A stretch of DNA of 64,000 bases from Lachnospiraceae bacterium 10-1 (GTDB taxonomy: Bacteria; Bacillota; Clostridia; Lachnospirales; Lachnospiraceae). Shown here piece by piece: positions 23,715 through 37,934 of this stretch. The number at the start of each line of letters is the position of its first letter. The first letter of the stretch is position 1. The notes beneath the pieces are model-generated. The model worked only from the letters and a program-made list of their open reading frames with translations. It was not told where the DNA came from and ran no database searches. The stretch covers positions 186,001-250,000 of the forward strand of contig KE159818.1 in NCBI GenBank assembly GCA_000403495.2, written 5' to 3'. The position numbers and the translations under genes are program-made.

Positions 23715-23797
23715 ACCTCTCCTTTTTACCTTTATATTTCCATATACTTATGCTATACTTTCCATAAAAATTAATTCATATGGAAAGGAATATACTA

Positions 23798-25428
23798 ATG
23801 AAAAAACTAGCAAACCGTCACTTATTTTCTATTTTTATGCTGGCTATTGTAACTGTTTTTTATCTTTTCTTTGCTTTTTATGATGGCGCAGTTATTTGTG
23901 TTGACTCCCCAAGCTATATTGGAATGAGTATCTCCAGAGAACCTTTATACCCTATAATCTTAGCCTTTTTCCGCAGTCTTTTCTCAAATTTTTCCTCTGA
24001 TTTCTATTTAACAGCCACCGCATTTTTCCAGAGTATCCTGGCTGCTCTTACCACCTGGGCTTTCGCTGTTTACGCATTAAAGGAATTTAAACTTACAAAA
24101 CTGTTTTCCTTAATTATTCTTATCACCCCCCCGTGGTTTCACTTTTATGCCGCTTTGCCGCTAAGAGGGGCTCTATGTATTCAAATAGTATCTTAACGGA
24201 AGGCATTGCCATTCCATGTTATTTTCTTTTCTTCCGCTGCTTAATGGAATTCCTTCTCCATCAAAGAAAAAAAGCATTGATTTTCTGCTGCCTTCTGGCA
24301 TTTTTACTCATCTCCACAAGAAAGCAAATGGCCATTGCACTTATTATGCTGGTAATAGGCATTCTTTATCATTTTATTAAAGAAAGACGCTATTTAAAGG
24401 GAATTATTATTTCTTTTTTATGTATGGCCGGCATTTTACTTAGCACTGTTTTATTGGATTTAGGATACAATTACGTTCTTTGCGGAGAGCTGACAAAGCA
24501 CTCCGGTGATACAAGATTTATCACTACAATGGCTCTTTATACCGCCGATAGAAATGATGCCCAATTTATTAATGATAAAGAAATTCAAAATTTATTTCTT
24601 CAAATTTATGACATTTGTGATGAAAACGGTTATTTAAAAAACTCTGCAGGACAGGGCTGGCTAAATCGGGTATCCCATTTTGGCGACTACTATGACTGCA
24701 TTCAAATAGATACCTTAAGACCTATGGTAAGCCAGTTTGCTTCAGAACGCCGGGATAACCTGGTTGATGCCAGCGAGTATGGCGACCAGATTATGGACAC
24801 CATAAATCATTCCATTATTCCCCACCATATACCGGAAATTCTGGGAACATTTGCAGACAACTTTTTATCCGGTCTGGTTACTACCGTTGCAAAGCGAAAT
24901 TCCATTTTAATCTGGTACAGCCTGTTTATCTATCTGTTTTATTTTACGCTGCTTGCCTGGCATATTGGGGTTGGCAAAAATCAAAAAACCATCCTGTTTG
25001 CCACGTTTACTTTGATTTCCATTTTTGTAAACGTAAGTCTGGTGTCTCTGGTCATATTCTGTCAGACAAGATACACCATTTACAACATGGCTCTTTTTTA
25101 TATCAGCCTGCTTCTTATGATGCAGGAACCCTTCCATAAATTACTAAACCGGATCAACTCCCTCTCCGTCAAACTCCGGGATAAAGCTTTCTTTTGCCAC
25201 ATCCCCTTCCTGAATAAAGGCATTTTCCACTCCCAGCTCTATGATATAATTTACCACCGCCTGGTATTCTCTTTTTGTAACCTTTCTGCAAAGCTCTTTG
25301 TATTCCGGCTTACTTTTAAGCCGGTCAAAGGGCGTATACTGGCTCATCAGACTTATGTAAACCTGTTTCCCATAGGTTTCATATACATAATGCATCACAT
25401 CTTTTGCGTTCTTTTTATGCCCCGGTAA
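23798..25428 (+). pseudogene. Frameshifted polytopic membrane protein (possible glycosyltransferase-type)
   Basis: Two overlapping reading frames encode one apparent protein. The first (from 23798, ATG after GAAAGGA) encodes hydrophobic segments and SPSYIGMSISREPLYP, and runs to ITPPWF, then a stop at 24196. The second continues from a run of seven C residues (24126-24132) as VVSLLCRFAAKRGSMYSNS and LTEGIAIP, with further transmembrane segments. One additional C would fuse them into a continuous protein of about 540 residues. The last 95 codons (from 25144) run antisense through the radical SAM gene, so the original stop may also be lost. The family is not recognised with certainty; the topology resembles large membrane glycosyltransferases or polymerases. 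It may be a pseudogene, a phase-variable gene or a sequencing error. Confidence 0.6.
24126..24132 (+). repeat. Poly-C tract (C7) at the frameshift
   Basis: Seven consecutive C residues lie exactly where the reading frame breaks in the membrane protein gene. C8 would restore the frame as Thr-Pro-Pro-Val-Val. Homopolymer tracts are known slippage sites. Confidence 0.7.
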
Positions 25429-26079
25429 AAGCAGGTGGCGGACAATAACCCCTTTTTTCATCATTCCTTCTTTGTCAAATACAGGCTCTCCGACAACATT
25501 CACCATCTCTTTCAGCGCTTCTTTTGCTCTTTCCGGATAGTCAGGAGCATTGGAGTACTTTGCAGAGAGCGCTGCATCCATATATTTAAAATCTGTCAGG
25601 AAGATATCTATGATTCCTGACAGATTTTTGATCACTTCCTTTTTTTCATACCCGCTTCCATTATAGACAATTGGCAGCTTAAGTCCCTGTTTTCTGGCCA
25701 GTAAAACTGCCTGCGCCGCCTGCAAAATATAATGATCCGGCGTCACAAAGTTTATATTGGCTGCTCCCATGTTCTGCAGCTCTAAAAAGATTTCCGCAAG
25801 CCTGTTTACAGAAACTTCCTTTCCCTTTTTACCATATGCAATCTCATAATTCTGGCAATAGACGCACCGCAGATTACAGCCGGAGAAAAACACCGTACCT
25901 GATCCTCTTTTCCCTGAAATACAGGGCTCCTCCCACATATGAAGGGCCGCCCTTGCAAGAAAAATTCTGTTGTCCATAAGGCAGTATCCGGCCTGTCCCT
26001 GATCTCTTTTGGCCATGCATTCTCTGGGGCAGAGATTACAGGGACTATTGCCTATACCTGTACGTTTTATCTCATCCAT
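25144..26079 (-). CDS. Radical SAM protein, PflX/PflA-like (COG1313 type)
   Basis: This 311-residue protein has the radical SAM cluster-binding motif GCNLRCVYCQNYEIA with C68, C72 and C75 in CxxxCxxC spacing. It also has N-terminal cysteines C14, C17 and C21 (PCNLCPRECMAKR) and C33, probably a zinc or auxiliary site, as in the uncharacterised PflX family related to pyruvate formate-lyase activases. No glycyl-radical enzyme is encoded in the window, so its partner is unknown. It starts 17 bases after the DUF6056-type gene and is probably cotranscribed. Its 3' end abuts and overlaps antisense the tail of the frameshifted gene. Confidence 0.85.
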   Translation of the reverse strand: MDEIKRTGIGNSPCNLCPRECMAKRDQGQAGYCLMDNRIFLARAALHMWEEPCISGKRGSGTVFFSGCNLRCVYCQNYEIAYGKKGKEVSVNRLAEIFLELQNMGAANINFVTPDHYILQAAQAVLLARKQGLKLPIVYNGSGYEKKEVIKNLSGIIDIFLTDFKYMDAALSAKYSNAPDYPERAKEALKEMVNVVGEPVFDKEGMMKKGVIVRHLLLPGHKKNAKDVMHYVYETYGKQVYISLMSQYTPFDRLKSKPEYKELCRKVTKREYQAVVNYIIELGVENAFIQEGDVAKESFIPEFDGEGVDPV

Positions 26080-26096: not shown

Positions 26097-27494
26097 TTAA
26101 TCTTCTCCGTACAGTTCGTTCCATTCATCACGGGGAATGGCTTTTATATTGTCCACACCATAATAAGTTTCATAAAATAGATTAATCCAGTAACCTCCAT
26201 ACTCCTCCATATCAGAATCATGAGCAACGCTGTAGGGATTTTTGAATGCCTCCCGGAACTTTGGAATTACTACCACCCCATCAGATGAAGGATCTGCCTT
26301 TTCTTCCATAATCAAAGTAATTCTTTCATTTTCTTCCCTGTAAATTCTGGCCAGGTTTACCAGATTATCCACATAAGTGAAAAACAGCCATACACATAAA
26401 ATACTGACCAGACTATACTTTGCTGTCCGTATAAAAAGCTCATGGTCTGTCACATCCACAATTCCCTGGATACAGCCGATAAGCAGGAAAATACCTGCTC
26501 CAAAAAAGGCTCTGTTCATGGGAGTTGGGGCTAATGCAAGGGCATAACTTGTAGCTGCTGCCCCAATCAAAAACAAAATTGTTTCATTACTGCGGATTTG
26601 CTTGAAACTGTACAGTTTTTTCTGCAGAACCAAAAGTACCAGCACAATAACCATAATCAAAATAACTGGAAAAAATAATTCACGTACATTAAGAGTAATC
26701 TTATAGTTTCTTGAAAGAAGCCCCACAATACCGGTATATTCCCCATCTGACATAACCTGGCTTCGGTTCCTCACCCCGGGCGCTGAGATCATTCCCAGAA
26801 TTCCACAGCACATGCCAAGCACGCCGGTTATCATAAATCCATGTAAGCCTTTTCCGCCTCTTTTTTTCTCCATCCACCAGAAATTAAGGGCAAACATAAT
26901 CACCAAAAGCAGACCGCCGCCGGAAGTATTTTCATTGCACCATCCGGCCAGCACGCCAAAGAAAAAGGTACCTGCCGCCAAAAGTACTTTGTGCCTGATT
27001 TTTTCAGGATGATTTAAAAAATATCTGTAAAATGTGATAAATCCCAAAATAAATACACTTCCCCACAGATAATTACAGGCGCCACAAATCCAAAGCATTG
27101 TCTGTCCGAAATCAACAGCAAACTTCCATAAAAAGGTGATAATAAGCAGAAGTACAAATATATCATACTTTTTTTTGCGCCGGATATTTGCATACATTAA
27201 AAGCACCAGTATAACAAACATTCCGCTGTTCACCAGATTAAATACCTGCTTGTCAAACACCAGCGACAGACGCACATTAAACTGCCCCACTACTCTTCCG
27301 CTGTTGGAAAGATATTCTCCATACTGCTGCTTGATTAAATCCCAAAAAGATTCTGCCTGACGCACTTCACAGGCATAAAAATAATCATCCGATAAATAAG
27401 GCGTTAAGAAATTGTAAATAAAAATCGTTATAAAAGCTGCTGCCAATATCAGCCAGAATATTTGTTTTCTATGTTTTTCCATAAAAACTGCCAC
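26097..27494 (-). CDS. DUF6056-type polytopic membrane protein
   Basis: This 465-residue protein has about ten hydrophobic segments and the N-terminal pattern FLTPYLSDDYFYACEVRQAES followed by GRVVGQF, which I associate with the DUF6056 family of membrane proteins with glycosyltransferase-like topology; the function is uncharacterised. Acidic YLSDDY in the first extracytoplasmic loop resembles the catalytic Asp pair of GT-C enzymes, which is inference only. A soluble C-terminal segment of about 80 residues follows the last membrane helix. I keep the GTG at 27494 because GAGG lies eight bases before it; the ATG at 27482 is an alternative. It sits 87 bases after the S15 hydrolase with no clear terminator between. 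Confidence 0.65.
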   Translation of the reverse strand: MAVFMEKHRKQIFWLILAAAFITIFIYNFLTPYLSDDYFYACEVRQAESFWDLIKQQYGEYLSNSGRVVGQFNVRLSLVFDKQVFNLVNSGMFVILVLLMYANIRRKKKYDIFVLLLIITFLWKFAVDFGQTMLWICGACNYLWGSVFILGFITFYRYFLNHPEKIRHKVLLAAGTFFFGVLAGWCNENTSGGGLLLVIMFALNFWWMEKKRGGKGLHGFMITGVLGMCCGILGMISAPGVRNRSQVMSDGEYTGIVGLLSRNYKITLNVRELFFPVILIMVIVLVLLVLQKKLYSFKQIRSNETILFLIGAAATSYALALAPTPMNRAFFGAGIFLLIGCIQGIVDVTDHELFIRTAKYSLVSILCVWLFFTYVDNLVNLARIYREENERITLIMEEKADPSSDGVVVIPKFREAFKNPYSVAHDSDMEEYGGYWINLFYETYYGVDNIKAIPRDEWNELYGED

Positions 27495-27581: not shown

Positions 27582-29225
27582 TCATTCCTCATTTTTTCTG
27601 TCTGACAATGGAAGTTCCAAAAAGGAATTCTCCACATTAACCTTATTTACCACTGTTTTTATTTTATCCTGCATTGACCAGCTCCCCTGCATATTTGTGT
27701 GCACATGAAACTCTGGAAAATTGCTGGAAGATACTGAAACCCTTATTTTAGAACCCTTTTGAAGAGCCCACATAATCGGCCATAATTGAAATTCCATCCT
27801 GACCGGCATGCCGGGTATATAGTCGTCTACCCTTTCTTTCGCCTGATTTCTATAGCCAATTGTTGATGCTCCAGTTCTGATATTATAAACTTCTCCATTT
27901 TGAAACTCTTCCAAAAGCTTTACTATAATCATTGTATCTGACGCCTCTGATTCTATTTCAAGACTTACCTTTACGCTGCCGCAGATTGTCAGTGGCTCCT
28001 CCAGCTCTTTCGTATGCAGATAAATAATTCTGTTGTCTTCTTTTATTTCCTGCCTTTTGGAACCTCTGTCCGTTGGCGGTGCATACAGCATGGATTCCGC
28101 CCCTTTTGCCTTAACCGGATTGTCAGGATTATGGATAAATTTGTTGCTTCCATTGCAGAATAAACCAAATGTCCTTATATTTCCTTCCTGCAGTGTATCT
28201 TTATGCATCCATTTGTCTTTTCCTATCATGTAACCGGTTATGCCGGGCTTTAAGTACTCCCTCTTACAGAAAAATGAATCCAGAAAGCGAAAGGCTTCAT
28301 TAAAGCCAAAAGGACTGTCATGTGTATGGTCGTCTATGTCATATGCATCCACCCCATTCTCCATGCCATGAATCCACGGACCAATTAGAAATACACTTTT
28401 TTCTCTGACAGATTCCTTTAAATGATTCCATGCGTAAAACATTCCTTCTAGATGATGGTCATACCAGCCCCCTGTTAAAAACACCGGTACGGAAATTTTC
28501 TCTGCTGTTTTCTTTAAATCCCCCCATATTCCTTCCGTCCAGTAGGTGTCCTTTTCATCTACATGTAAAAGCCAGTCTCGAAACCATGAAAGTCTTTTTC
28601 CCATAACAGCTTCATCCATCTTCAAAAAAGGCCTGTAAAGGCAGCAGTCAGGGTAAATCTCTTTTTTTTCAGTCTTTGCATTTTCCACAGCCCAGCCGGT
28701 ATATACATCATGGCGGAAGCATCCATTTGTATAGGCAGAACGGTATCTGTCAGTTCCCGCCTGAATAATAACCATTGTTTTCACCTTTGGCGTTAAGCCA
28801 TCCGTCACAAACCACTGTGTATAACCTCCATAGGAAAGCCCGTACAATCCTATCTGTTCTGCAAAATCCTGCTGTTCCAGCCAGTAAAGTGTATCCAGAC
28901 CATCATTTTTCTCATTGACAAAAGGCTCCCACTGCCCCTGGGACTGTCCGATTCCCCTGCATAACTGATAACCGGAAATATACCCTCTGCACGCCATTTG
29001 ATACGCCATCCACTCAAAAATTGGTGTTTGAAAAGCATAACAGGACCTTTGAAAGGTTACAATTCCTTTTGTTACCCCTTCAGGAAAAATAAAACGTGTA
29101 AACAGCTTTACCCCGTCTCTCATTGGTATCATTACCGTTTTTTCTTTTCCTGCTTTCAAGTCCGCCTTTCTGATCCGCCTGATTTCTCTATTTAATTGTT
29201 CCAGTATTTCCTTACACTTATCCAT
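27582..29225 (-). CDS. CocE/NonD family hydrolase (peptidase S15 type)
   Basis: This 547-residue alpha/beta hydrolase belongs to the Xaa-Pro dipeptidyl-peptidase/cocaine-esterase group. The nucleophile is S131 in LYGLSYGGYTQ, the acid is probably in GGWYDHHLEG and the catalytic histidine in GPWIHGMEN. The C-terminal jelly-roll domain (from about residue 370, with residues IYLHTKELEEPLTICGSVKV) is the X-Pro peptidase C-terminal fold. Members split peptides after proline, or esters and acylated compounds; the motifs do not separate these. It overlaps the upstream esterase gene by eight bases (ATGGATAA), so the two are translationally coupled. No signal peptide. As last gene of the AtuA/ABC operon it probably acts on the imported compound. 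Confidence 0.85.
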   Translation of the reverse strand: MDKCKEILEQLNREIRRIRKADLKAGKEKTVMIPMRDGVKLFTRFIFPEGVTKGIVTFQRSCYAFQTPIFEWMAYQMACRGYISGYQLCRGIGQSQGQWEPFVNEKNDGLDTLYWLEQQDFAEQIGLYGLSYGGYTQWFVTDGLTPKVKTMVIIQAGTDRYRSAYTNGCFRHDVYTGWAVENAKTEKKEIYPDCCLYRPFLKMDEAVMGKRLSWFRDWLLHVDEKDTYWTEGIWGDLKKTAEKISVPVFLTGGWYDHHLEGMFYAWNHLKESVREKSVFLIGPWIHGMENGVDAYDIDDHTHDSPFGFNEAFRFLDSFFCKREYLKPGITGYMIGKDKWMHKDTLQEGNIRTFGLFCNGSNKFIHNPDNPVKAKGAESMLYAPPTDRGSKRQEIKEDNRIIYLHTKELEEPLTICGSVKVSLEIESEASDTMIIVKLLEEFQNGEVYNIRTGASTIGYRNQAKERVDDYIPGMPVRMEFQLWPIMWALQKGSKIRVSVSSSNFPEFHVHTNMQGSWSMQDKIKTVVNKVNVENSFLELPLSDRKNEE

Positions 29226-30012
29226 TAAGCATCCATTCTAATCCGCTTTTTAAATGAGGATTCCAAAAGTTCCAGTCGTGGCCGCCTTCATCCAAATCAA
29301 AATGATAATCAATTCCCAATTGACCAATCATTTGGGCATATGCCTGATTTGTTTTTGCAAAATAATCGTCCTTTCCAACTGCAAGATAAACTCGGGGTAT
29401 TTCCTTCCTTTCATCTGCTGTCTTCTGGGTAAGAAAATAAATATCATCCCCGCTTCCTTTTACCTTTTCTCTTTCCTTTCCATAAATAGAATCCAAATCC
29501 AGCAATTCTTCATATAAGCCGCAATTTAAAAGATCCATAATATCCACTACACCGGATAAGGAAACCGCTCCCTTATATCTGTCAGGATTACCCATTGCCA
29601 GCTTTAAAGCTCCATATCCTCCCATAGATAGTCCCGCCGCATAATTGTCTTCCCTTTTTCCTGAAATGGGAAATACACAACGGATCATTCTGGGCAGTTC
29701 TTCCGCCACAAACGTATAATATGCCGGTCCATGCACCATATCCGTATAGTAACTGTTTCCAACATTGGGCATAACCACAGCGATGCCATATTCCTCCGCC
29801 AAAGCTTCAATCTCCGTAAAGCGAATCCAGCAGGAAGCATCTGCAACTCCGCCATGAAGCAGATACAGTACCGGAAGCTCTTTTCTCTTTTCAGGATATA
29901 TCACATCAAGCGCTGCTCCTTTTGTATCTCCCTGATAAAAGGAAGGAATAATTACATAATAAGTAACATATGTTTTCAGTACAGCCGAGTGCCCATTACA
30001 GGTATATAACAT
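29218..30012 (-). CDS. Alpha/beta hydrolase, EstA/esterase D-like
   Basis: This 264-residue cytoplasmic enzyme matches the putative esterase family that includes tributyrin esterase EstA, feruloyl esterase-like enzymes and S-formylglutathione hydrolase. The serine nucleophile S129 is in AAGLSMGGYGALKLA, the oxyanion region in LLHGGVADASCW, and the catalytic histidine in DEGGHDWNFWN near the C-terminus. The start at 30012 has GGAGG upstream; the longer frame begins at that TTG GAG. It lies 33 bases after the ABC permease and overlaps the S15-type hydrolase, so both belong to the same transcript. Pairing two hydrolases with a sugar-type importer suggests removal of ester groups from a carbohydrate-like substrate. 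Confidence 0.85.
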   Translation of the reverse strand: MLYTCNGHSAVLKTYVTYYVIIPSFYQGDTKGAALDVIYPEKRKELPVLYLLHGGVADASCWIRFTEIEALAEEYGIAVVMPNVGNSYYTDMVHGPAYYTFVAEELPRMIRCVFPISGKREDNYAAGLSMGGYGALKLAMGNPDRYKGAVSLSGVVDIMDLLNCGLYEELLDLDSIYGKEREKVKGSGDDIYFLTQKTADERKEIPRVYLAVGKDDYFAKTNQAYAQMIGQLGIDYHFDLDEGGHDWNFWNPHLKSGLEWMLNG

Positions 30013-30045
30013 AACAACCTCCAATCCTTCTTAACATAAAAGTTT

Positions 30046-30993
30046 TTATGATAAAAGCCTTTTATCTTTAATCTGCAGATTATCCAGTGCCACTGCAAAT
30101 ATCAACAGTATTCCCTTAAAAACATTCTGATAATATTCATTCACATTCATAAGCACAAGTGCATTTCCCAAAACTGCTATGATAATAACACCAATCACTG
30201 CCCCGCTGACTTTTCCTTCACCGCCGGAAAAGCTTACACCTCCTAGTACTGCCGCTGTCATACAGTCAAAGGCATAGGTGGCTCCTGCTGCCGGTTGTGC
30301 CGAATTAACCCTGGAGAGCATGATAAGGGATGAAATTGCCGTAACAAATCCACAGATTGCATATACTATAATTTGAAGACGTTTTATATTTACTCCTGCC
30401 AGTCTGGCAGTCTCTGAATTTCCCCCTGTTGCGTAAATATATCTTCCAAAATAAGTTTTCTTTAAAACAAAGCTGGCTATTAACGCAATGGCCAGAAATA
30501 CAATCACCGGCACAGGAATTGGTCCCATATACCCCTGTCCAAGTACGCTGAAACCTTCCGGAAGTCCATAGATTGGCTTTCCGCTTGTTACGATATAGGC
30601 AATCGCCTGTAAAATCGTCATGGTTCCCAGGGTAACTACCAGAGGCTGAATTCTTAATTTTACTACGATTATTCCATTTACTGCACCCATCAGCATTCCA
30701 ATTATCAATGCGCATATACATACTATAACAGGATTCCATTTCAATTGAATCATTAAAAGGGCGGAAATAATTCCATTTACCGCTATCTGTCCGCCTACGG
30801 ACAAATCGCTTCCCCCACATATCATAACAAAGCTTACACCTACAACTACGATTCCCAGCATTGCAGATTGTCTGATAATATTCATCATATTATTCCAGGT
30901 GAGAAAATTATCAGTCAATATGGAAAAAATAATAATTTCTACAAGAAGAAAAATATATATTCCCCATTTTTTGTAAAATGATATTATAAACAT
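30046..30993 (-). CDS. Ribose/sugar-type ABC transporter permease (RbsC family)
   Basis: This 315-residue membrane subunit belongs to the BPD_transp_2 family (RbsC/XylH/AraH). Diagnostic segments are GGSDLSVGGQIAVNG near residue 60, IVVKLRIQPLVVTLGT near 110 and CMTAAVLGGVSFSGGEGKV near 240. It is predicted to have about ten membrane segments. It starts with ATG after GGAGATAAGCAG, 17 bases downstream of the ATPase. Only one permease is present, so the channel is presumably a homodimer. Confidence 0.92.
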   Translation of the reverse strand: MFIISFYKKWGIYIFLLVEIIIFSILTDNFLTWNNMMNIIRQSAMLGIVVVGVSFVMICGGSDLSVGGQIAVNGIISALLMIQLKWNPVIVCICALIIGMLMGAVNGIIVVKLRIQPLVVTLGTMTILQAIAYIVTSGKPIYGLPEGFSVLGQGYMGPIPVPVIVFLAIALIASFVLKKTYFGRYIYATGGNSETARLAGVNIKRLQIIVYAICGFVTAISSLIMLSRVNSAQPAAGATYAFDCMTAAVLGGVSFSGGEGKVSGAVIGVIIIAVLGNALVLMNVNEYYQNVFKGILLIFAVALDNLQIKDKRLLS

Positions 30994-31010
30994 CTGCTTA
31001 TCTCCTCTTT

Positions 31011-32489
31011 TTATTCTCCTGATGCCAGATTCAATATATATTCCTGACTGAATTTTTCTTTTTCCACCATTCCCGCCTGTTTTCCTTCTGATAGAACTAA
31101 AATTCTGTCGCTCATCCCCAAAAGCTCTTCCATGTCAGAAGAAATCATAATAATTGATTTTCCTGCTGATACCATCTCGTTCATCAAAAGATAAATTTCC
31201 TGTTTTGCCCCAACATCAATTCCTCTTGTGGGTTCGTCAAAAATCAGAATTTGCGCATTTTGCGCCAGTGTTTTGGCAAGAACCACTTTCTGCTGATTTC
31301 CACCGGATAAATTGACTGCTTTTTGATTCAGTGAAGGGGTTTTTATTTTTAATTTTCTGCAATATGCTTCTGCTGTTTCCCGTTCTTTTGTTTCGTTTAC
31401 CACAAAATATTTTACTATGGACTTAATGCTGTTAAAGGTAATATTCCACTTAATATCCATTCCCAGGAATAGTCCCTGTTCTTTTCTGTCTTCTGGAATC
31501 AAGCCAAACCCATAATGAATGGCATCTGTTACCGACTTAATGCAAACCTTTTTCCCATTTAAAACAATTTCTCCGCCCTCTGCCGGCTCTGCCCCATAAA
31601 GCACCCTCATGATTTCTGTTCTTCCACTGCCAACCAGACCGGCAATTCCAAGTATTTCCCCTTTGTAAAGAGAAAAACTAATATTTGACACGCCATTTCC
31701 AGTCAGCCCTTCCACTTTAAGAACTGCCTCGTTTTTCCTGCAGTCTCTAAGGGGATAGTTTGTTTCCAGTTTTCTTCCCACCATCAGTTGAATTAATTCA
31801 TCCCTGTCCGTTTCAGAAATGTTCAGGGTTTTAATATATTTTCCGTCCCGCATCACAGTTACCCTGTCACAAATCCGGAAAATTTCTTCCATTCGATGGG
31901 ATATATAAATTACTGTAACCTTTTTTTCTTTCAGTTTTTCAACAATTTCAAACAGCAGCTCTGTTTCATGCATGGTTAATGGGGCTGTAGGTTCATCCAT
32001 AATTAATATTTTTACATCTTTCGCTATGGCTTTTGATATTTCCACCATCTGCTGCTGCGCCGGTGTCAATTCCCTGACCAGTTTTTTGGGATTGATTTTT
32101 ATCCCCAGAGATTCCAATAATTTTTTTGCAACCTGCTCCATTTCTTTAAAGTCTGCCAATCTGCCTCTGTGGTCTCCAAGAAGAATATTTTCTGCCACCG
32201 TCAGCGTGGGAACCAGATTAAACTCCTGAAAGATAACCTCAATCTTATGTGCTCTGGATTCTTTAGGCGAGATTTTCGCATAGCTGTCATTTCCTATATG
32301 GATGAAGCCCTCATCCGGCTCTATAGCACCAGCAATTAACTTGATTAAAGTTGATTTGCCGGCGCCATTTTCACCTGACAGTGCATGTATTTCACCTTTT
32401 CGGATTTCAAACGACACATGATCTAGAGCCACCACACCCGGGTAATGTTTTGTCAGATTTTCCACTGATAAAGCGATCCCTGTATTCAT
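31011..32489 (-). CDS. Ribose/sugar-type ABC transporter ATPase (RbsA/MglA family)
   Basis: This 492-residue protein contains two ABC cassettes in tandem, the hallmark of the RbsA/MglA/XylG class. The first has Walker A SGENGAGKSTLIKL, Walker B VKILIMDEPTAPLT. The second has the degenerate Walker A LVGSGRTEIMR and the signature LSGGNQQKVVLAKTL with IFDEPTRGIDVGAK. The ATG at 32489 is chosen because GGAGG lies eight bases upstream; a longer frame from 32519 lacks a site. It sits between the binding protein and the permease. Confidence 0.93.
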   Translation of the reverse strand: MNTGIALSVENLTKHYPGVVALDHVSFEIRKGEIHALSGENGAGKSTLIKLIAGAIEPDEGFIHIGNDSYAKISPKESRAHKIEVIFQEFNLVPTLTVAENILLGDHRGRLADFKEMEQVAKKLLESLGIKINPKKLVRELTPAQQQMVEISKAIAKDVKILIMDEPTAPLTMHETELLFEIVEKLKEKKVTVIYISHRMEEIFRICDRVTVMRDGKYIKTLNISETDRDELIQLMVGRKLETNYPLRDCRKNEAVLKVEGLTGNGVSNISFSLYKGEILGIAGLVGSGRTEIMRVLYGAEPAEGGEIVLNGKKVCIKSVTDAIHYGFGLIPEDRKEQGLFLGMDIKWNITFNSIKSIVKYFVVNETKERETAEAYCRKLKIKTPSLNQKAVNLSGGNQQKVVLAKTLAQNAQILIFDEPTRGIDVGAKQEIYLLMNEMVSAGKSIIMISSDMEELLGMSDRILVLSEGKQAGMVEKEKFSQEYILNLASGE

Positions 32490-32525
32490 TCCAAAATCCT
32501 CCATACCTTTCTTCGTCATGCACCA

Positions 32526-33536
32526 TTATTCTGCCATATATTCAGCAACATTACTCTCCGTTATCTTAATAATGGGAGGAGAAAGAAGCTCATCCACATT
32601 TTCCCCTTTTGCCAGCTTTATAAGCTGCTCTCCCAAATTAATTGCTCCAAATGCAATAGTTCCTTTCAGGCTTTCACCCTCAGAAATCTTTTTGAGTCCT
32701 TCCGCAGTTCCGTCCGAACCAAACACTGCAATTTCAGTAACATTTGCCGCTTTATAAGCCTCCACTACCCCTAATGCAGACGCATCATTAATACAAATAA
32801 CTACTTTAACATCAGGATTTCCCTGAATAATATTTTCAGCAGCGCTCATGCCGGATTCTGTATCATTTGCTTCAATTTCTTTTACTAAAAGAGCATTGGG
32901 ACATTCTTTTGCAAGTGTTTCTTTCATTGCTTCACTTCTTGTTGCCATATTAGAATTGGAGGTGTCCACAAGCATTGCCACTTCTACTTCGTTATCTCCA
33001 TATGTTTCTTTTATATAATCACAGCCCATTCCTGAAATAGTATTTCCGGCTTCCACCTGGTCTGTATTATACAAAGCATTCATATTGTCTAATGCAATAC
33101 CGCCTGATATAATCTTAACTCCCGCATCCATTGCACTTTTACATGCTGTATCTACCGATTCCTTGTCCATAGGGAATATTAACGCCGCATCAACTCCCAT
33201 CGTAATCAGGTTTTCAACAGATGATACCTGTTTGGTTGCGTCCATATCATAGCTTATGACATTGAGCTCATAGCCATATTCATCCAAAACTGCCTGCAGT
33301 GCATCAATTTCCCCCTGAAAATATTCATTTCCGGAAGTTGGAATAATAATAGCAAACTTATAATCTTCCTTTGCTGTTTCCTCCTCCTTTTCCGTATTGG
33401 CAACATCTGTATTTTCCGTTCCCTGATTTTCTGCTTCCTGTGCATTCTGGCTTACTTCTCCCTCATCCGTTTTCCCACATCCGGTAAAAGAAGCAATTAA
33501 AGCCGCACATAATAAAATTGCCATAATCTTTTTCAT
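32526..33536 (-). CDS. Sugar-type periplasmic-binding lipoprotein (RbsB family)
   Basis: This 336-residue receptor has a signal peptide ending in a lipobox (FTGC near residue 21), a Glu/Asn/Thr-rich linker, and the Peripla_BP_4 fold: FAIIIPTSGNEYFQGEIDAL, VDAALIFPMDKESVDTACK, and VVICINDASALGVVEAYK near residue 245. These are typical of RbsB-like receptors for ribose, galactose, autoinducer-2 or other polyols. The start follows GGAGGTCAGGTTAAT. Its ribosome binding site lies inside the preceding 19-codon ORF. Confidence 0.92.
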   Translation of the reverse strand: MKKIMAILLCAALIASFTGCGKTDEGEVSQNAQEAENQGTENTDVANTEKEEETAKEDYKFAIIIPTSGNEYFQGEIDALQAVLDEYGYELNVISYDMDATKQVSSVENLITMGVDAALIFPMDKESVDTACKSAMDAGVKIISGGIALDNMNALYNTDQVEAGNTISGMGCDYIKETYGDNEVEVAMLVDTSNSNMATRSEAMKETLAKECPNALLVKEIEANDTESGMSAAENIIQGNPDVKVVICINDASALGVVEAYKAANVTEIAVFGSDGTAEGLKKISEGESLKGTIAFGAINLGEQLIKLAKGENVDELLSPPIIKITESNVAEYMAE

Positions 33537-33537
33537 A

Positions 33538-33597
33538 TTAACCTGACCTCCATCTAAAATTTAGTTTACAGTTACATAGTTGATTTTCTTTTGCCAT
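33538..33597 (-). CDS. Candidate leader peptide, 19 codons
   Basis: In the 72-base gap between the CoA-transferase and the binding-protein gene, an ATG preceded by AAGGAGG opens a 19-codon frame encoding MAKENQLCNCKLNFRWRSG. Its TAA stop lies one base before the binding-protein ATG, and the binding protein's own GGAGGT is embedded in this ORF. That arrangement suits translational coupling that raises expression of the receptor over the upstream enzymes. The Shine-Dalgarno to ATG distance is short (three bases), and no homologue is known to me, so translation is unproven. Confidence 0.35.
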   Translation of the reverse strand: MAKENQLCNCKLNFRWRSG

Positions 33598-33608
33598 ACT
33601 CCTCCTTC

Positions 33609-34808
33609 CTATATGATTTCCCTTTTTTTGTATTCTTCCAGCTTTTTCTCATCAATATTAAGAAATTCTGTCAATACCTCCTTATTATTCTCACCTAAAA
33701 GCGGTGCCGGCCTAAAAGGAATATTTTCCTCTCCCAACAATTTCACTGCGCATCCGTTAACCTTCATTTTTCCAATCTCCGGATGCTCTATTTCCACAAA
33801 CATTTTTCGGTGTTTTACAATATGTTCATCCTGAGAAATATCTTTTAAATTATTAATGGGGCCAGCCGGAATCCCATTTTTTAAAAGAAGATCAACCATT
33901 TCCAAAACTTTATAGTCCTGCAGCCAGTTCTCTATAATCTGCTTTAATTCCTTTTGATTTTTCACCCGGTCTTCCATAATCCGAAACCTTTCATCAGAAA
34001 GAAGCTCCGGCCTTTTCATAACGTTAGTACATAAAAGTTCATATAAATGCTGATTGCCGCAGGCTATTACAATTTTTCCATCCCTGGCGCTAAATACATC
34101 ATAAGGTGCACAGGGCGCATATCTGTTTCCAATTCTTTCCGGCACCCTGCCGCTGGAAAAAAATCTCTGGGTAGCTGAATCCAGACTTGAAATGACACAA
34201 TCCAGCAGTGCAATATCCACTCTTTTTCCTTTTCCAGTTGTCATCCTCTCATGTACTGCTGCCAATATGCCAACTGCCAGATTCAAACCGCCAAGCACAT
34301 CTCCCATTGCATTTCCTGCACGAGTAGGCGGATCTTCAGGCTGCCCCGTAATGCTCATTAATCCTCCCATTGCCTGAGAAAGAATATCATAGCCTGGTCT
34401 CTGGGCGTAAGGCCCGGTAATGCCAAATCCCGTTACGGAACCATAAATGATTCTTTCATTAATTTTCTTTAACTCCTCATACCCTAACCCCAGCCGCTCC
34501 ATGACGCCGGGCCTGTAATTTTCCACAATGATGTCCGCTTTTTTAACAAGTTCCAGAAAAATTTTTTTCCCCTCATCACTTTTTAAATTTAATGTAATAC
34601 TTTTTTTATTTCGATTAATATTGGCAAAATACATGCTGGAACCATTTTTATAAGGCGCGTAGCTTCTGGTGTCATCCCCGCCTTTGGGATTTTCAATTTT
34701 TATCACATCAGCCCCTAAATCTGCCAGTATCATTGTGCAGTAGGGCCCGGCTACTACGCGTGTAAGATCTAATATAATCAGGTTTTCCAATGCCCTGTAA
34801 CTACTCAT
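33609..34808 (-). CDS. Class III CoA-transferase (CaiB/BaiF family)
   Basis: Family III enzymes move CoA between carboxylic acids through an enzyme-bound mixed anhydride. The 399-residue protein starts with the family hallmark LIILDLTRVVAGPYCTMILA then DLGADVIKIE, and the catalytic aspartate is D170 in AMGDVLGGLN, at almost the same position as Asp169 of formyl-CoA transferase. GKGKRVDIALLD follows. The start overlaps the AtuA-C gene by eight bases (ATGAGTAG), so translation is coupled. With AtuA it implies that a carboxylic acid is activated as a CoA thioester before or after AtuA acts. The acid and the CoA donor are unknown. Confidence 0.92.
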   Translation of the reverse strand: MSSYRALENLIILDLTRVVAGPYCTMILADLGADVIKIENPKGGDDTRSYAPYKNGSSMYFANINRNKKSITLNLKSDEGKKIFLELVKKADIIVENYRPGVMERLGLGYEELKKINERIIYGSVTGFGITGPYAQRPGYDILSQAMGGLMSITGQPEDPPTRAGNAMGDVLGGLNLAVGILAAVHERMTTGKGKRVDIALLDCVISSLDSATQRFFSSGRVPERIGNRYAPCAPYDVFSARDGKIVIACGNQHLYELLCTNVMKRPELLSDERFRIMEDRVKNQKELKQIIENWLQDYKVLEMVDLLLKNGIPAGPINNLKDISQDEHIVKHRKMFVEIEHPEIGKMKVNGCAVKLLGEENIPFRPAPLLGENNKEVLTEFLNIDEKKLEEYKKREII

Positions 34809-35211
34809 TTTTGCTCCCATCCTCCGCTTTAGCGGCACTCATCAGGGAGGTTGAAAGTGTTTTTCTTCCAGCCCTCTCATCTTTTCCAAAATCATCATCA
34901 ACCTGGATTTTCATTCTCATAAAAGCAGATCCCAAGGATTTTCCAAGGCTGTCCAGCCTGAGAGAATGTGTTGCACCTCCTCCCAGCGCATGCTTCATTA
35001 CAAAATTAAATCCTTTTAGGCTGTCCACCTCATAACGAATAATCTCACCTTTTACCATATTTCCAAAATAATCCTTAACCTTTTTTTCCGTCACCTGCTC
35101 CTTTATAACAGGGAAGTATTCCGCCTTTCTTGCATAAACGCAAACATTACTGGTATCCCCTTTGTCTCCGGATCTTCCATGCGCAATCTCTTTTAAATAA
35201 ATTTCCTTCAT
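34801..35211 (-). CDS. AtuA C-terminal-domain-like protein, stand-alone
   Basis: This 136-residue protein matches the small domain that follows or accompanies AtuA/DUF1446 in acyclic terpene and other CoA-dependent catabolic clusters. Recognisable segments are LKEIAHGRSGDKGDTSNVCV at the N-terminus and ALGGGATHSLRLDSLGKSLG in the second half. Here it is a separate gene 30 bases after AtuA, probably forming a complex with it. No catalytic motif can be assigned. The gene overlaps the CoA-transferase by eight bases. Confidence 0.8.
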   Translation of the reverse strand: MKEIYLKEIAHGRSGDKGDTSNVCVYARKAEYFPVIKEQVTEKKVKDYFGNMVKGEIIRYEVDSLKGFNFVMKHALGGGATHSLRLDSLGKSLGSAFMRMKIQVDDDFGKDERAGRKTLSTSLMSAAKAEDGSKNE

Positions 35212-35241
35212 ACAGCCTCTCCCCCTCTTAGCTTTGCAGCT

Positions 35242-36609
35242 TTATGTATCAACTATATATGTTTTCAGATGAAGCGCATCTCTGGGAATCAGCGTGGGCC
35301 ACAAACCAATTACCTCTTCCACCTTTGCCCTCCCTCCGAAGAAGCTGGCGCCAGGCGGCCCATTTAATTGAAGGGGGGAAATTTCAGGAACCAGTTTATA
35401 TGCTTCCTCTTTGGTAAGCGTGCGGACTGCAATGCGGAGAACTACTTCATTTATGTTCTCACACATTTCTTTTGTCATATCTGCAGCATCTAAGTGCAGC
35501 GCATTCAGTCCCACATAATCAATACGGATCTCTTCTGCTTTGAGACCTTTTCTCTGCATCTTCTTTAAAATAATCTGTGCTGCATACTGTGCTTTTTCGT
35601 ATGCATCCGGCCATGCATAGCACAAATAGGCAGCTACTTTGTACCCTGCATGATAACCGATATTTAATTTCAGCTTATCGGGTTTTTTTCTTCCTTTAAT
35701 GTTTCTGATATCTACCAGATTTTTTCCTATTTCAATGATTTGAGCCTTACTTATGTCAACTGTAACATCAGGTGTAATATAATTTGCCGGATCATGTACC
35801 TCATAGAGAAACTGTTCCTTACAGGTCTGCTCTGTTATGATTCCGCCACAGTCCGGAGCTTTCGTAATATGTAGATAATCATCCGATACCTCTGCAATGG
35901 GAAATCCCAGCCTGTCCATATCCGGCACATTTCTCCAGTCATATTGAAAATTTCCTCCTGAGCCCTGGCCTCCACATTCCAGTAAATGTCCCGCCATAAT
36001 TCCTCTTGCTGTTTTATCCTGATCACTGCCATCCCACCCAAGTTTTTTCATAATTGGCGCCAGGAATAGTGCCGAGTCTGTCGCCCTGCCTGTCAAAACC
36101 AGATCTGCACCCTGATTAAGGCATTCTAAAATGGGTTCATGTCCAAAATACACATTTGCATTAACGATATCAGGCAAAATATCTTTCAGTTTTAAGCCAC
36201 TGTCGTCCAAATTATCAAATTCTATTCCTTCTTTAATCAGTTCCGGCAGCTCCTCCTTAATATCGTCCCCCAGAATATATCCAATGCGGTATCCTTTTAT
36301 TTTTTCATCAGCGCAGACCTTCCTGCATGCATCCACAGCTCCTAAAACATTCATTCCTCCTGCGTTTGTCAGGATACCCGTTTTATGATAATGACTTTCT
36401 CTGACAACATTTTTAAACAGTTCTACAAAATCTGCCGCATATCCTTTTTTAGGATTTTTTAACTTTTGACGGGCCATAATTGACAAAGTCAGTTCCGCCA
36501 GATAATCACAGGCCATATAATCCAGCCCGCCATGCTTCATCATATGGATTGCAGCATCATTACTGTCGCCCCAAAATCCCTGGCCTCCCCCAATTCTCAC
36601 CTTCCTCAT
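35242..36609 (-). CDS. AtuA family protein (DUF1446, acyclic terpene utilisation-like)
   Basis: This 455-residue protein belongs to the AtuA family, named for a Pseudomonas protein needed for growth on citronellol and geraniol whose reaction is still not settled. Family segments include VRIGGGQGFWGDSNDAA at the N-terminus, HGGLDYMACDYLAELTLS, LTNAGGMNVLGAVDACRK, and GQGSGGNFQYDW in mid-protein. The start at 36609 follows GGAGGAAAAT; a start four codons upstream overlaps that site. As the first gene behind the LacI-controlled promoter it heads the catabolic operon. Terpene catabolism seems unlikely in a gut-type anaerobe with a ribose-type importer, so the substrate is probably different; that is inference. 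Confidence 0.85.
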   Translation of the reverse strand: MRKVRIGGGQGFWGDSNDAAIHMMKHGGLDYMACDYLAELTLSIMARQKLKNPKKGYAADFVELFKNVVRESHYHKTGILTNAGGMNVLGAVDACRKVCADEKIKGYRIGYILGDDIKEELPELIKEGIEFDNLDDSGLKLKDILPDIVNANVYFGHEPILECLNQGADLVLTGRATDSALFLAPIMKKLGWDGSDQDKTARGIMAGHLLECGGQGSGGNFQYDWRNVPDMDRLGFPIAEVSDDYLHITKAPDCGGIITEQTCKEQFLYEVHDPANYITPDVTVDISKAQIIEIGKNLVDIRNIKGRKKPDKLKLNIGYHAGYKVAAYLCYAWPDAYEKAQYAAQIILKKMQRKGLKAEEIRIDYVGLNALHLDAADMTKEMCENINEVVLRIAVRTLTKEEAYKLVPEISPLQLNGPPGASFFGGRAKVEEVIGLWPTLIPRDALHLKTYIVDT

Positions 36610-36776
36610 ATTTTCCTCCATTTCGAAGCGTTTTACGCTGAGAAGGCGGGCAAAGTATCAGATCTCGCTCTGCCATCTCAGAATTTGTGATGCTCCGGCA
36701 CAAATTCCTGGTTGATACAATCAGCTTGATAACTGATTTTTCAACCTTTTCCCCTTAATAATCAATGGTCTGTTGC

Positions 36777-36805
36777 TTGACAGTTTTAGTACAACGTTAT
36801 ACTAT
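36777..36805 (+). promoter_or_regulatory. Predicted promoter of the LacI-family regulator gene
   Basis: TTGACA (36777-36782), 17 bases and TACTAT (36800-36805) point to the regulator gene. The palindrome fills the spacer and the -10, so the regulator probably represses itself. Confidence 0.6.
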
Positions 36806-36815
36806 AACGTTGTAC
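36789..36815. promoter_or_regulatory. Perfect 27-bp palindrome, candidate LacI-family operator
   Basis: GTACAACGTTATA is followed by one central base and its exact reverse complement TATAACGTTGTAC. Each half contains AACGTT with the central CG typical of LacI-family operators, so the site may hold two overlapping operators. It lies between the divergent regulator and AtuA-operon start points, overlapping both promoters. In the remainder of the 36.6-36.9 kb intergenic region I see only AT-rich spacer. Confidence 0.8.
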
Positions 36816-36819
36816 TATT

Positions 36820-36847
36820 ATTATATTATATTTTTTCCAATTGTCAA
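36820..36847 (-). promoter_or_regulatory. Predicted promoter of the AtuA-CoA-transferase-ABC operon
   Basis: On the minus strand TTGACA (36847-36842), a 16-base spacer and TATAAT (36825-36820) form a near-ideal promoter. The palindrome begins a few bases downstream of the -10, covering the start site. The leader is about 200 bases. Confidence 0.75.
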
Positions 36848-36914
36848 TAGCATTTTTTAGTTATTCTGTTATAATCTTATGAGATATACATTTTATCATG
36901 AAAGGTCAGAAAAA

Positions 36915-37934
36915 ATGGCAACCATTAAGGACATTGCACAGGCTCTGGGAATTTCCCCCTCCACAGTATCTATTGTCTTAAGGGGAAATGGAGAAAAAAG
37001 AAATATTTCAAAATCTACAATTGAAAAGGTCTTTGCATGCGCAAAAGAACTGGATTATCAGCCCAATATTGTGGCTAAGCGCCTTCGGGAAATTAATTCT
37101 CCGTATTCATATACTATTGCTGTTTTTTGGACCTCCGATTTTCGTGCATCCATGCTTGTACGTTTCTTACGCGGCCTGCAAAAAGCAATTGATGCATCCG
37201 GTTTAAACATTGAATTTTTTATCAGACAATATGAAAATGATTTTCTGTCCATGACATTAACAGAAAGTTCCTTTAATATGTTTCATGGTGCTATTGTATG
37301 TAATGCCTCCGAAAAAGACATTATGTACATAGAAAGCGTAACCTTTTTAAAACCCATTGTCCTCTATAACAGACGTTCACCCATATATTCCACCGTTTCA
37401 ATTGACGACAAACTGATTGGCCGGATTGCCGCAGATGAATTTTACAAACATCATTGCAGGCGTTCCTGTATCATAACCTCGGAATCAGTTTTTGCCGGTA
37501 TGTTGGAACGAACTGACAGTTTTATATCAAGAATAAAAGAATATTCTATAGAATTTATTGATACTTTCCAAGTTAATAATTCTATAAGCGGCGGATATAG
37601 TGGAGGAAGGAAGCTTTTAAATCTGCCTTACCTTCCCGACAGTATTTTCTGCGCTTCCGATATGATTTCTATGGGCGTCCTTTACGCTTTAAATGAAGCC
37701 GGTGTTTCAATACCGGATAAAGTAAAATTAATCAGTGTGGGAAATGGAGACCGGGAAATGGAAGAATTTACCTACCCGCCTTTATCGGTGGTTTATATTC
37801 CCATTGAGGAAATGGCTATCAACTGCTTAAGGCTCCTTGTAGAATTATTTCCCCTTAATATTGCCGCTGATCAGCGTGAAATTATTATTGACACCCCCTA
37901 TATTCCCCGCCGGACCTGTCCGAAAACAGACTGA
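36915..37934 (+). CDS. LacI-family transcriptional regulator
   Basis: This 339-residue protein has an N-terminal LacI helix-turn-helix (ATIKDIAQALGISPSTVSIV, hinge region with LDYQPNIVAKRLRE) and a periplasmic-binding-protein-like effector domain ending in the usual IIDTPYIPRRTC. The start at 36915 follows AAAGG nine bases upstream; the ATG at 36879 has none. It is divergent from the AtuA operon across a perfect palindrome and is the obvious local regulator. Effector-domain family suggests a sugar or sugar-like inducer, agreeing with the ribose-type importer it probably controls. Confidence 0.93.
   Translation: MATIKDIAQALGISPSTVSIVLRGNGEKRNISKSTIEKVFACAKELDYQPNIVAKRLREINSPYSYTIAVFWTSDFRASMLVRFLRGLQKAIDASGLNIEFFIRQYENDFLSMTLTESSFNMFHGAIVCNASEKDIMYIESVTFLKPIVLYNRRSPIYSTVSIDDKLIGRIAADEFYKHHCRRSCIITSESVFAGMLERTDSFISRIKEYSIEFIDTFQVNNSISGGYSGGRKLLNLPYLPDSIFCASDMISMGVLYALNEAGVSIPDKVKLISVGNGDREMEEFTYPPLSVVYIPIEEMAINCLRLLVELFPLNIAADQREIIIDTPYIPRRTCPKTD

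Follow-up and report, generated by a model that had tools for sequence, protein, structure and literature searches.

A candidate LacI-controlled operon of Lachnospiraceae bacterium 10-1 for esters of 3-hydroxy-3-methylglutarate or a close homologue, with AtuA/AtuA-C as proposed acyl-CoA lyase

Proposed function of the operon

The DNA under study is a stretch of 64,000 nucleotides from Lachnospiraceae bacterium 10-1 (contig KE159818.1, positions 186,001 to 250,000; referred to as the window), in which a LacI-family regulator gene lies next to eight genes in the order AtuA, AtuA-C, class III coenzyme A (CoA)-transferase, RbsB, RbsA, RbsC, PF00756-family esterase, and CocE/NonD hydrolase (Table 1). 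With somewhat better than even confidence, we propose that these genes form a LacI-controlled catabolic operon for sugar-like compounds esterified with 3-hydroxy-3-methylglutarate (HMG) or a closely related 3-hydroxy-3-alkylglutarate, and that AtuA/AtuA-C cleaves the resulting acyl-CoA. In the proposed pathway, RbsB/A/C would import the whole ester, the cytoplasmic esterase (EstA) and/or the CocE hydrolase would release the acid, and the class III CoA-transferase would make the acyl-CoA (with acetyl-CoA or succinyl-CoA as the likely donor). AtuA and AtuA-C would then cleave the C–C bond beside the tertiary hydroxyl (i.e., HMG would yield acetoacetyl-CoA and acetate), and the housekeeping thiolase of the genome would finish by thiolysis. 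We infer the substrate, the direction of transport, the binding of the repressor, every reaction, and the order of the steps. What the proposal adds is the identity suggested for the acid (HMG or a close homologue) and the role suggested for AtuA/AtuA-C in place of HMG-CoA lyase.

HMG-CoA genes beside AtuA in relatives

Neighbouring genes were compared across 43 loci (i.e., 42 relative AtuA loci, numbered with L, and the window), labelled by phmmer against the window proteins and against representatives scanned with Pfam or NCBIfam, with many neighbours carrying no label. Among L001–L031, only the strong-match loci were extended; L040 and L041 were left out of the counts, and L105 was left out of the second tree owing to an over-long open reading frame (ORF). 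The window's AtuA falls in a clade of 14 loci (the window, L032–L034, L048–L051, L070–L073, L099, and L133; support 100/99), in which the gene directly after AtuA-C encodes a CoA-transferase in ten loci and an HMG-CoA reductase in two (L072 and L133). L071 has its CoA-transferase gene three genes upstream of AtuA, and L051 has none within nine genes of AtuA.

The L072 and L133 operons (L072:5806-10634 and L133:8994-13814), which come from different Clostridial families of one order, share the arrangement sigma54-type regulator, AtuA, AtuA-C, HMG-CoA reductase, small gene, and TctA. The L072 AtuA is 63% identical to that of the window, and the L072 reductase passes the TIGR00532 "degradative" model (475.5 bits; cut-off 259.95). 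The small gene before TctA has no Pfam match, and might be TctB-like judging from its position and from weak similarity to the correspondingly placed gene of Rhizobium etli. HMG-CoA synthase was found in none of seven genomes tested, including those of L072 and L133 (both at 97% completeness); four of the 14 controls had it. The L072/L133 reductase is therefore unlikely to serve the usual mevalonate synthesis, and probably runs from mevalonate to HMG-CoA. Canonical HMG-CoA lyase (NF004283; cut-off 246 bits) was above cut-off in none of 11 genomes, among which were those of the window and L072 (G946) but not that of L133, with 3 of 14 controls above. Weaker, sub-cut-off matches were present in 10 of these 11 genomes, and the best one in the window's own genome (41.5 bits) lay on another contig. 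As judged from the lyase result for the L072 genome, the L072 and L133 operons apparently serve mevalonate breakdown without canonical HMG-CoA lyase.

The L072 reductase further matched 37 plasmid records, nine regions of which were opened (note that the PLSDB gene tables are incomplete). Two haloarchaeal plasmids (L134:4730-7669 and L135:4730-7693) carry overlapping genes for a degradative HMG-CoA reductase, AtuA, and a small AtuA-C-like protein, and their AtuA lies in a clade neighbouring that of the window (joint group support 99/94). On three bacterial plasmids an annotated HMG-CoA lyase gene instead lies by the reductase gene, either adjacent (Rhodococcus), divergent and one gene off (R. 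etli), or 2 kb off (another Rhizobium), with the R. etli reductase and TctA being 53% and 42% identical, respectively, to those of L072. AtuA/AtuA-C seems to substitute for HMG-CoA lyase at the two Clostridial loci and on the two archaeal plasmids. The bacterial plasmid systems resemble our proposal in that an HMG-CoA intermediate is cleaved by a lyase, but the window lacks a reductase and has a CoA-transferase with AtuA/AtuA-C, and L072/L133 represent a mixed form.

In a more distant AtuA clade, L083 (L083:6337-10628) has AtuA-C followed by genes for 3-oxoacid/acetate CoA-transferase subunits (alpha subunit at 316.1 bits; acetate CoA-transferase cut-off 315) and an acetyl-CoA C-acyltransferase (above the TIGR01930 cut-off), with a CitMHS transporter gene upstream. 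The same order was recognised by similarity at L079:4069-8228, of which the thiolase was scanned. These CoA-transferase and thiolase neighbours fit acetoacetate or acetoacetyl-CoA as the product, and make both clusters candidates for a free-HMG pathway.

A wider proposal, which we hold more tentatively and at clearly less than even confidence, is that anaerobic Clostridia and some haloarchaea have, in AtuA/AtuA-C, a second type of HMG-CoA-cleaving enzyme (yielding acetoacetyl-CoA and acetate), unrelated to HMG-CoA lyase and used in its stead, and that Lachnospiraceae would employ it in a dedicated operon to grow on dietary plant glycosides or cyclitols esterified with HMG. A limited search of one open-access library, in which AtuA was not paired with HMG-CoA reductase or mevalonate, found no report that AtuA acts on HMG-CoA and none of an operon for HMG esters.

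Importer and hydrolases

Within the clade, an ATP-binding cassette (ABC) importer was recognised at seven loci (the window, L032–L034, and L048–L050), a CitMHS transporter at three (L071, L073, and L099), and a TctA transporter at two (L072 and L133); at L051 and L070, most neighbours of which were not scanned, no importer was recognised. An ester hydrolase is encoded nearby at all seven ABC-importer loci (i.e., the window and six relatives) and at none of the five free-acid-transporter loci, the relatives being searched with four custom profiles (CocE, EstA, the alpha/beta hydrolase of L049, and the S9-type hydrolase of L034). At L034, 7.6 kb separate the hydrolase gene from AtuA, and the hydrolase itself served as the source of its profile; L051 and L070, in which the four profiles found no hydrolase, stand outside the count. 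The exact p-value of this association is 0.0013 for the 12 loci; it rises to 0.0022 when L034 is left out, and to 0.014 when orthologues are collapsed in addition. LacI genes follow a similar division (near six of the seven ABC-type loci and none of the five free-acid-transporter loci), and sigma54-type regulators were labelled near L034, L070, L072, L073, L099, and L133. The importer/hydrolase block varies by exchange among relatives and is therefore informative about the route by which the acid is obtained, but not about the function of the AtuA core. The earlier note had outlined ester import, hydrolysis, CoA activation, and processing by AtuA; the correlation between importer and hydrolase supports this outline, and the AtuA step can be sharpened to a putative cleavage of 3-hydroxy-3-alkylglutaryl-CoA, most likely HMG-CoA.

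In the window itself, RbsB, RbsA, and RbsC scored 89.6, 541.8, and 252.8 bits, respectively, against the NCBIfam ribose equivalogs (cut-offs 337, 745, and 398), by which they are classed as a sugar-type importer with a ligand not assignable to ribose; a ribose operon was set aside on the same scores. The best solved-structure relatives of RbsB bind ribose and other sugars, and, as read by eye from the alignment, some of the positions that we take to be ribose contacts are kept and others are not. The RbsB N-terminus resembles a lipoprotein signal by eye. The CocE/NonD hydrolase belongs to its family with 200.8 bits against TIGR00976 (cut-off 66.3) and carries the motifs GLSYGG, GGWYD, and GPWIH, which are presumably its catalytic Ser-Asp-His motifs. 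No signal peptide was seen by eye on either the esterase or the CocE hydrolase, so that cleavage of the ester would take place in the cytoplasm.

The putative LacI control and the sugar-type importer suggest that the acid would be bound to a sugar or a cyclitol. In Oscillibacter (L034), the AtuA/AtuA-C/CoA-transferase genes are preceded, 2.6–9.3 kb upstream on the same strand, by genes for an esterase, an RbsA/C/B set, and an inositol dehydrogenase (L034:6235-7389; 359.4 bits for TIGR04380, cut-off 355), with a sigma54-type regulator gene between this importer block and the AtuA core. At L049, an RbsBAC-type importer (RbsB 29% identical to the window's; RbsC across the fetched edge, in L117) and CocE accompany AtuA/AtuA-C/CoA-transferase, and an alcohol dehydrogenase gene near AtuA (L049:14897-15952) has scyllo-inosose dehydrogenase as its best match, below cut-off. 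The two dehydrogenases hint at a cyclitol.

The CoA-transferase, the AtuA proteins, and known systems

The CoA-transferase is a class III member (PF02515, E 1.3e-127, 426.3 bits, profile 1–366 of 366) and the single such match in its genome. Its closest solved-structure relative is formyl-CoA transferase, with succinate-HMG CoA-transferase (9br6) second. The aspartate that the earlier note gave as an intact D170 is indeed present, although it is D180 in the longest ORF and becomes D170 if translation begins ten codons later; the true start probably lies about ten codons inside the ORF. This residue lines up with the aspartate of "amtd" in 9br6, and we take it to be the catalytic one. All seven NCBIfam models listed stay under their cut-offs, with the mesaconate, oxalate, and glutarate CoA-transferases scoring highest. 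Against the succinate-glutarate CoA-transferase NF052585, 327.9 bits were obtained (equivalog cut-off 750), which classes the protein as a relative of that enzyme and not as an assigned orthologue. Thiolase-family matches in the genome number two, one of them spanning the whole domain.

AtuA belongs to PF07287 (E 1.7e-127, 426.3 bits, cut-off 22.8, profile 1–434 of 437), with no further match in the genome, and AtuA-C to PF23544 (E 2.2e-28, 99.2 bits, cut-off 27, profile 2–112 of 113). A separate AtuA-C gene is not unusual, since it lies directly behind AtuA in 41 of the 42 relative loci, the exception being L039, where AtuA is at a contig end. A profile of 24 AtuA sequences matched citramalate lyase subunit A (PDB 9erq; see also 9evf) with an E of 1.8e-7 over about half of its length, the GR..D, LECA, and YE..DP stretches being alignable, and the window AtuA alone gave an E of 0.33. 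This protein, named for citramalate, is thus a distant AtuA-family relative. The AtuA-C profile had no solved-structure relative (best E 0.64), and an AlphaFold model of AtuA from four sequences was unusable (mean pLDDT, i.e., predicted local distance difference test score, 34.9).

Two known systems resemble the proposed pathway. According to the available text of PMC12016498, the thn operon of anaerobic naphthalene degraders has a CoA-transferase gene (thnP) beside two AtuA-like lyase genes (thnQ and thnS), so that the earlier note's view of these functions as not known to be described together needs qualifying for this part of the operon. ThnP was shown to be a CoA-transferase with the purified enzyme, and ThnQ and ThnS are described, partly on the credit of unpublished results, as AtuA-like lyases acting on a tertiary-hydroxyl acyl-CoA (PMC12016498). 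As in our proposal, CoA is placed first and C–C cleavage follows at a tertiary hydroxylated carbon, but the substrate is a cyclohexane, the gene table in that text contains no sugar importer, esterase, or LacI, and ThnP moves CoA within one molecule, the likeness being one by description (PMC12016498). The AtuA of the Atu pathway, which shares the family name, acts on the isohexenyl homologue of HMG-CoA, but is a single longer protein (615 amino acids in Thauera) and is fed by geranyl-CoA carboxylase and a hydratase, with neither CoA-transferase nor sugar importer described in the accessible part of PMC4847356. HMG-CoA, in turn, is the methyl homologue of this terpene-pathway substrate. Together, ThnQ/ThnS, the Atu pathway, and citramalate lyase subunit A suggest that the AtuA family comprises C–C lyases of tertiary 3-hydroxy acids. 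The available text of PMC4682846 also notes, beside methylaspartate genes, a DUF1446 gene without assigned function.

A terpene-type Atu pathway run under anaerobic conditions would agree with the family name and with the function in Pseudomonas and Thauera, yet we regard it as very improbable for the window. Genes for the carboxylase (geranyl-CoA carboxylase in the Atu pathway), the hydratase, and an acyl-CoA dehydrogenase are absent from the operon, to which the search for them was confined, and membership of the Atu pathway was accordingly set aside; such genes are present at L102, L103, L106, and plasmid loci of Rhodococcus, Sulfitobacter, and Achromobacter, and a sugar-type importer is ill-suited to a terpene. 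A less distant alternative keeps the same architecture for another acid, i.e., a 2-alkylmalate (of citramalate type) or other 3-hydroxy-3-substituted dicarboxylate that is CoA-activated and cleaved by AtuA/AtuA-C. It draws on the name of the solved AtuA-family protein, on the mesaconate, oxalate, and glutarate scores of the CoA-transferase, and on the citrate-type transporters of the free-acid relatives; the citramalate lyase match is remote, however, and the clade neighbours point to HMG-CoA, as the distant L083 cluster does to an acetoacetyl product. We consider this other acid rather unlikely.

Conservation and regulation of the operon

A search of genome contigs returned three loci. The full set of nine genes is found with unchanged order at L032 and L033 (other Lachnospiraceae; 56–84% identity, CocE being least conserved), so the arrangement is more than chance. 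The flanks of L032 and L033 differ from those of the window and have in common an aldo/keto reductase gene before LacI and ABC-2 genes after CocE, which means that the two are not fully independent cases. The joining of the enzyme block with the ABC/hydrolase block, on which the earlier note had staked its operon, has thus withstood the neighbourhood comparison.

The operon promoter fits the sigma70 consensus in full, and the paired operator follows directly after its –10 box, with the two sites 13 bp apart. A like promoter layout was seen by eye upstream of AtuA in L032 and L033, and an operator pair with equal spacing occurs in the LacI–AtuA gap of L032, L033, and L048; the corresponding gap of L049 has two operator-type sites 58 bp apart. 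With up to two mismatches, the operator pattern has this promoter as its sole occurrence in the source genome, and 0.03 matches would be expected by chance in the window at up to three mismatches. The LacI protein has the helix-turn-helix and ligand domains of a family repressor, with a palindromic site (predicted) at the target promoter. Because the operator pair is conserved and genome-wide found only here, these data suggest that LacI is a local repressor dedicated to this one target, its binding being predicted, and the operon is apparently locally regulated.

Genomes with an AtuA match (E ≤ 1e-20, own genome included) numbered 6 in the genus (37 searched), 12 in the family (397), 8 in the class (391), and 13 in the phylum (378); the search of the order, at E ≤ 1e-3, gave 40 (392), mostly with weak matches. 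These genome sets overlap. CocE lies near AtuA in 12 of the 43 loci and a CitMHS-type transporter in eight, never together (hypergeometric p-value of 0.054, or 0.083 without L032 and L033), and well-supported branches of the AtuA tree require the CocE label to have been gained or lost at least five times. Separately, AtuA/AtuA-C of L036, L037, L038, and L086 lie near NMT1-type ABC binding proteins of a different substrate class (L036 by Pfam, the others by similarity).

The locus might instead hold two co-regulated but chemically separate modules, with RbsBAC and the hydrolases handling one compound and AtuA/AtuA-C/CoA-transferase another, as could be read from relatives that keep the AtuA core with the importer/hydrolase part exchanged or absent. 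We deem this improbable, given that three genomes (the window's included) hold the nine genes in order, that the operator pattern is confined to this promoter, and that CocE recurs beside AtuA with repeated label changes on the tree.

Several observations weigh against an operon for HMG esters. The link to HMG rests on the loci of relatives and not on the window operon itself, and the HMG specificity of the CoA-transferase is a candidate one, its best solved relative being named formyl-CoA transferase and its scores lying below all seven listed cut-offs. Four of the nine reductase plasmid regions (Ruegeria and three haloarchaea) show neither AtuA nor HMG-CoA lyase nearby, so that a lyase encoded nearby is not a constant requirement of the reductase. 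Among plasmid AtuA regions (162 records matched, nine opened, one without annotation), two of the nine carry a reductase and several look terpene- or leucine-type. The importer/hydrolase test is small and was framed after the loci were seen, with the absence of hydrolases depending on the four custom profiles; L051 and L070 lack a recognised importer and L051 a CoA source, with most of their neighbours unscanned; and the separation of CocE from CitMHS reaches a p-value of only 0.054 (or 0.083).

Layout of the locus and neighbouring genes

The source genome comprises 4.57 Mb in 24 contigs. All nine genes of the locus (27582-37934) are intact ORFs of the families named in the earlier note, as confirmed by Pfam and NCBIfam matches. 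Eight of them form a collinear minus-strand series (36621 down to 27582), with spacings of 30, –38, 72, 6, 17, 21, and –8 bases; the LacI gene, which had been counted as a ninth collinear gene, is divergent on the plus strand.

Table 1. Coordinates of the operon genes and regulatory features in the window.
Feature	Position	Strand	Basis
LacI-family repressor	36879..37934	+	PF00356 + PF13377; gene 73-76% identical in L032/L033
AtuA, large subunit of proposed HMG-CoA (or homologue) lyase	35242..36621	-	PF07287
AtuA-C (AtuA_ferredoxin domain), small subunit of proposed lyase	34801..35211	-	PF23544
Class III (CaiB/BaiF) CoA-transferase, proposed HMG-CoA-forming	33609..34838	-	PF02515
RbsB-like sugar-type substrate-binding lipoprotein	32526..33536	-	PF13407
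RbsA-like double ATPase of importer	31011..32519	-	PF00005, two stretches
RbsC-like permease of importer	30046..30993	-	PF02653
PF00756-family esterase	29218..30024	-	Pfam match + GLSMGG motif
CocE/NonD family hydrolase	27582..29225	-	TIGR00976 above cut-off
Operon promoter, sigma70-type, TTGACA-16-TATAAT, 12 of 12	36820..36847	-	Consensus match
Paired LacI-type operator, two AACGTT-centred sites	36787..36817	.	Together a perfect inverted repeat
Promoter-like site for lacI, 10 of 12, overlapping the operator	36777..36805	+	Consensus match

Behind CocE, on the same strand, lie a DUF6056 gene (26097-27494; 87 bases away) and, 17 bases further on, a gene that looks radical-SAM-like by eye (25144-26079). 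Since neither follows CocE in L032 or L033, they were not counted in the operon. At 23780-25428 of the window, two overlapping plus-strand ORFs (138 and 431 amino acids) look by eye like parts of one membrane protein in two frames.

Implications

If true, the proposal would give the large and loosely named "acyclic terpene utilization AtuA" family a concrete role outside terpene breakdown, and would add a non-homologous alternative to HMG-CoA lyase. The relatives would then show one AtuA pair supplied in different ways, namely through a CoA-transferase, HMG-CoA reductase, or free-acid transporters. HMG occurs bound to some plant glycosides, and the operon would define a use of HMG by anaerobic bacteria of the Lachnospiraceae.

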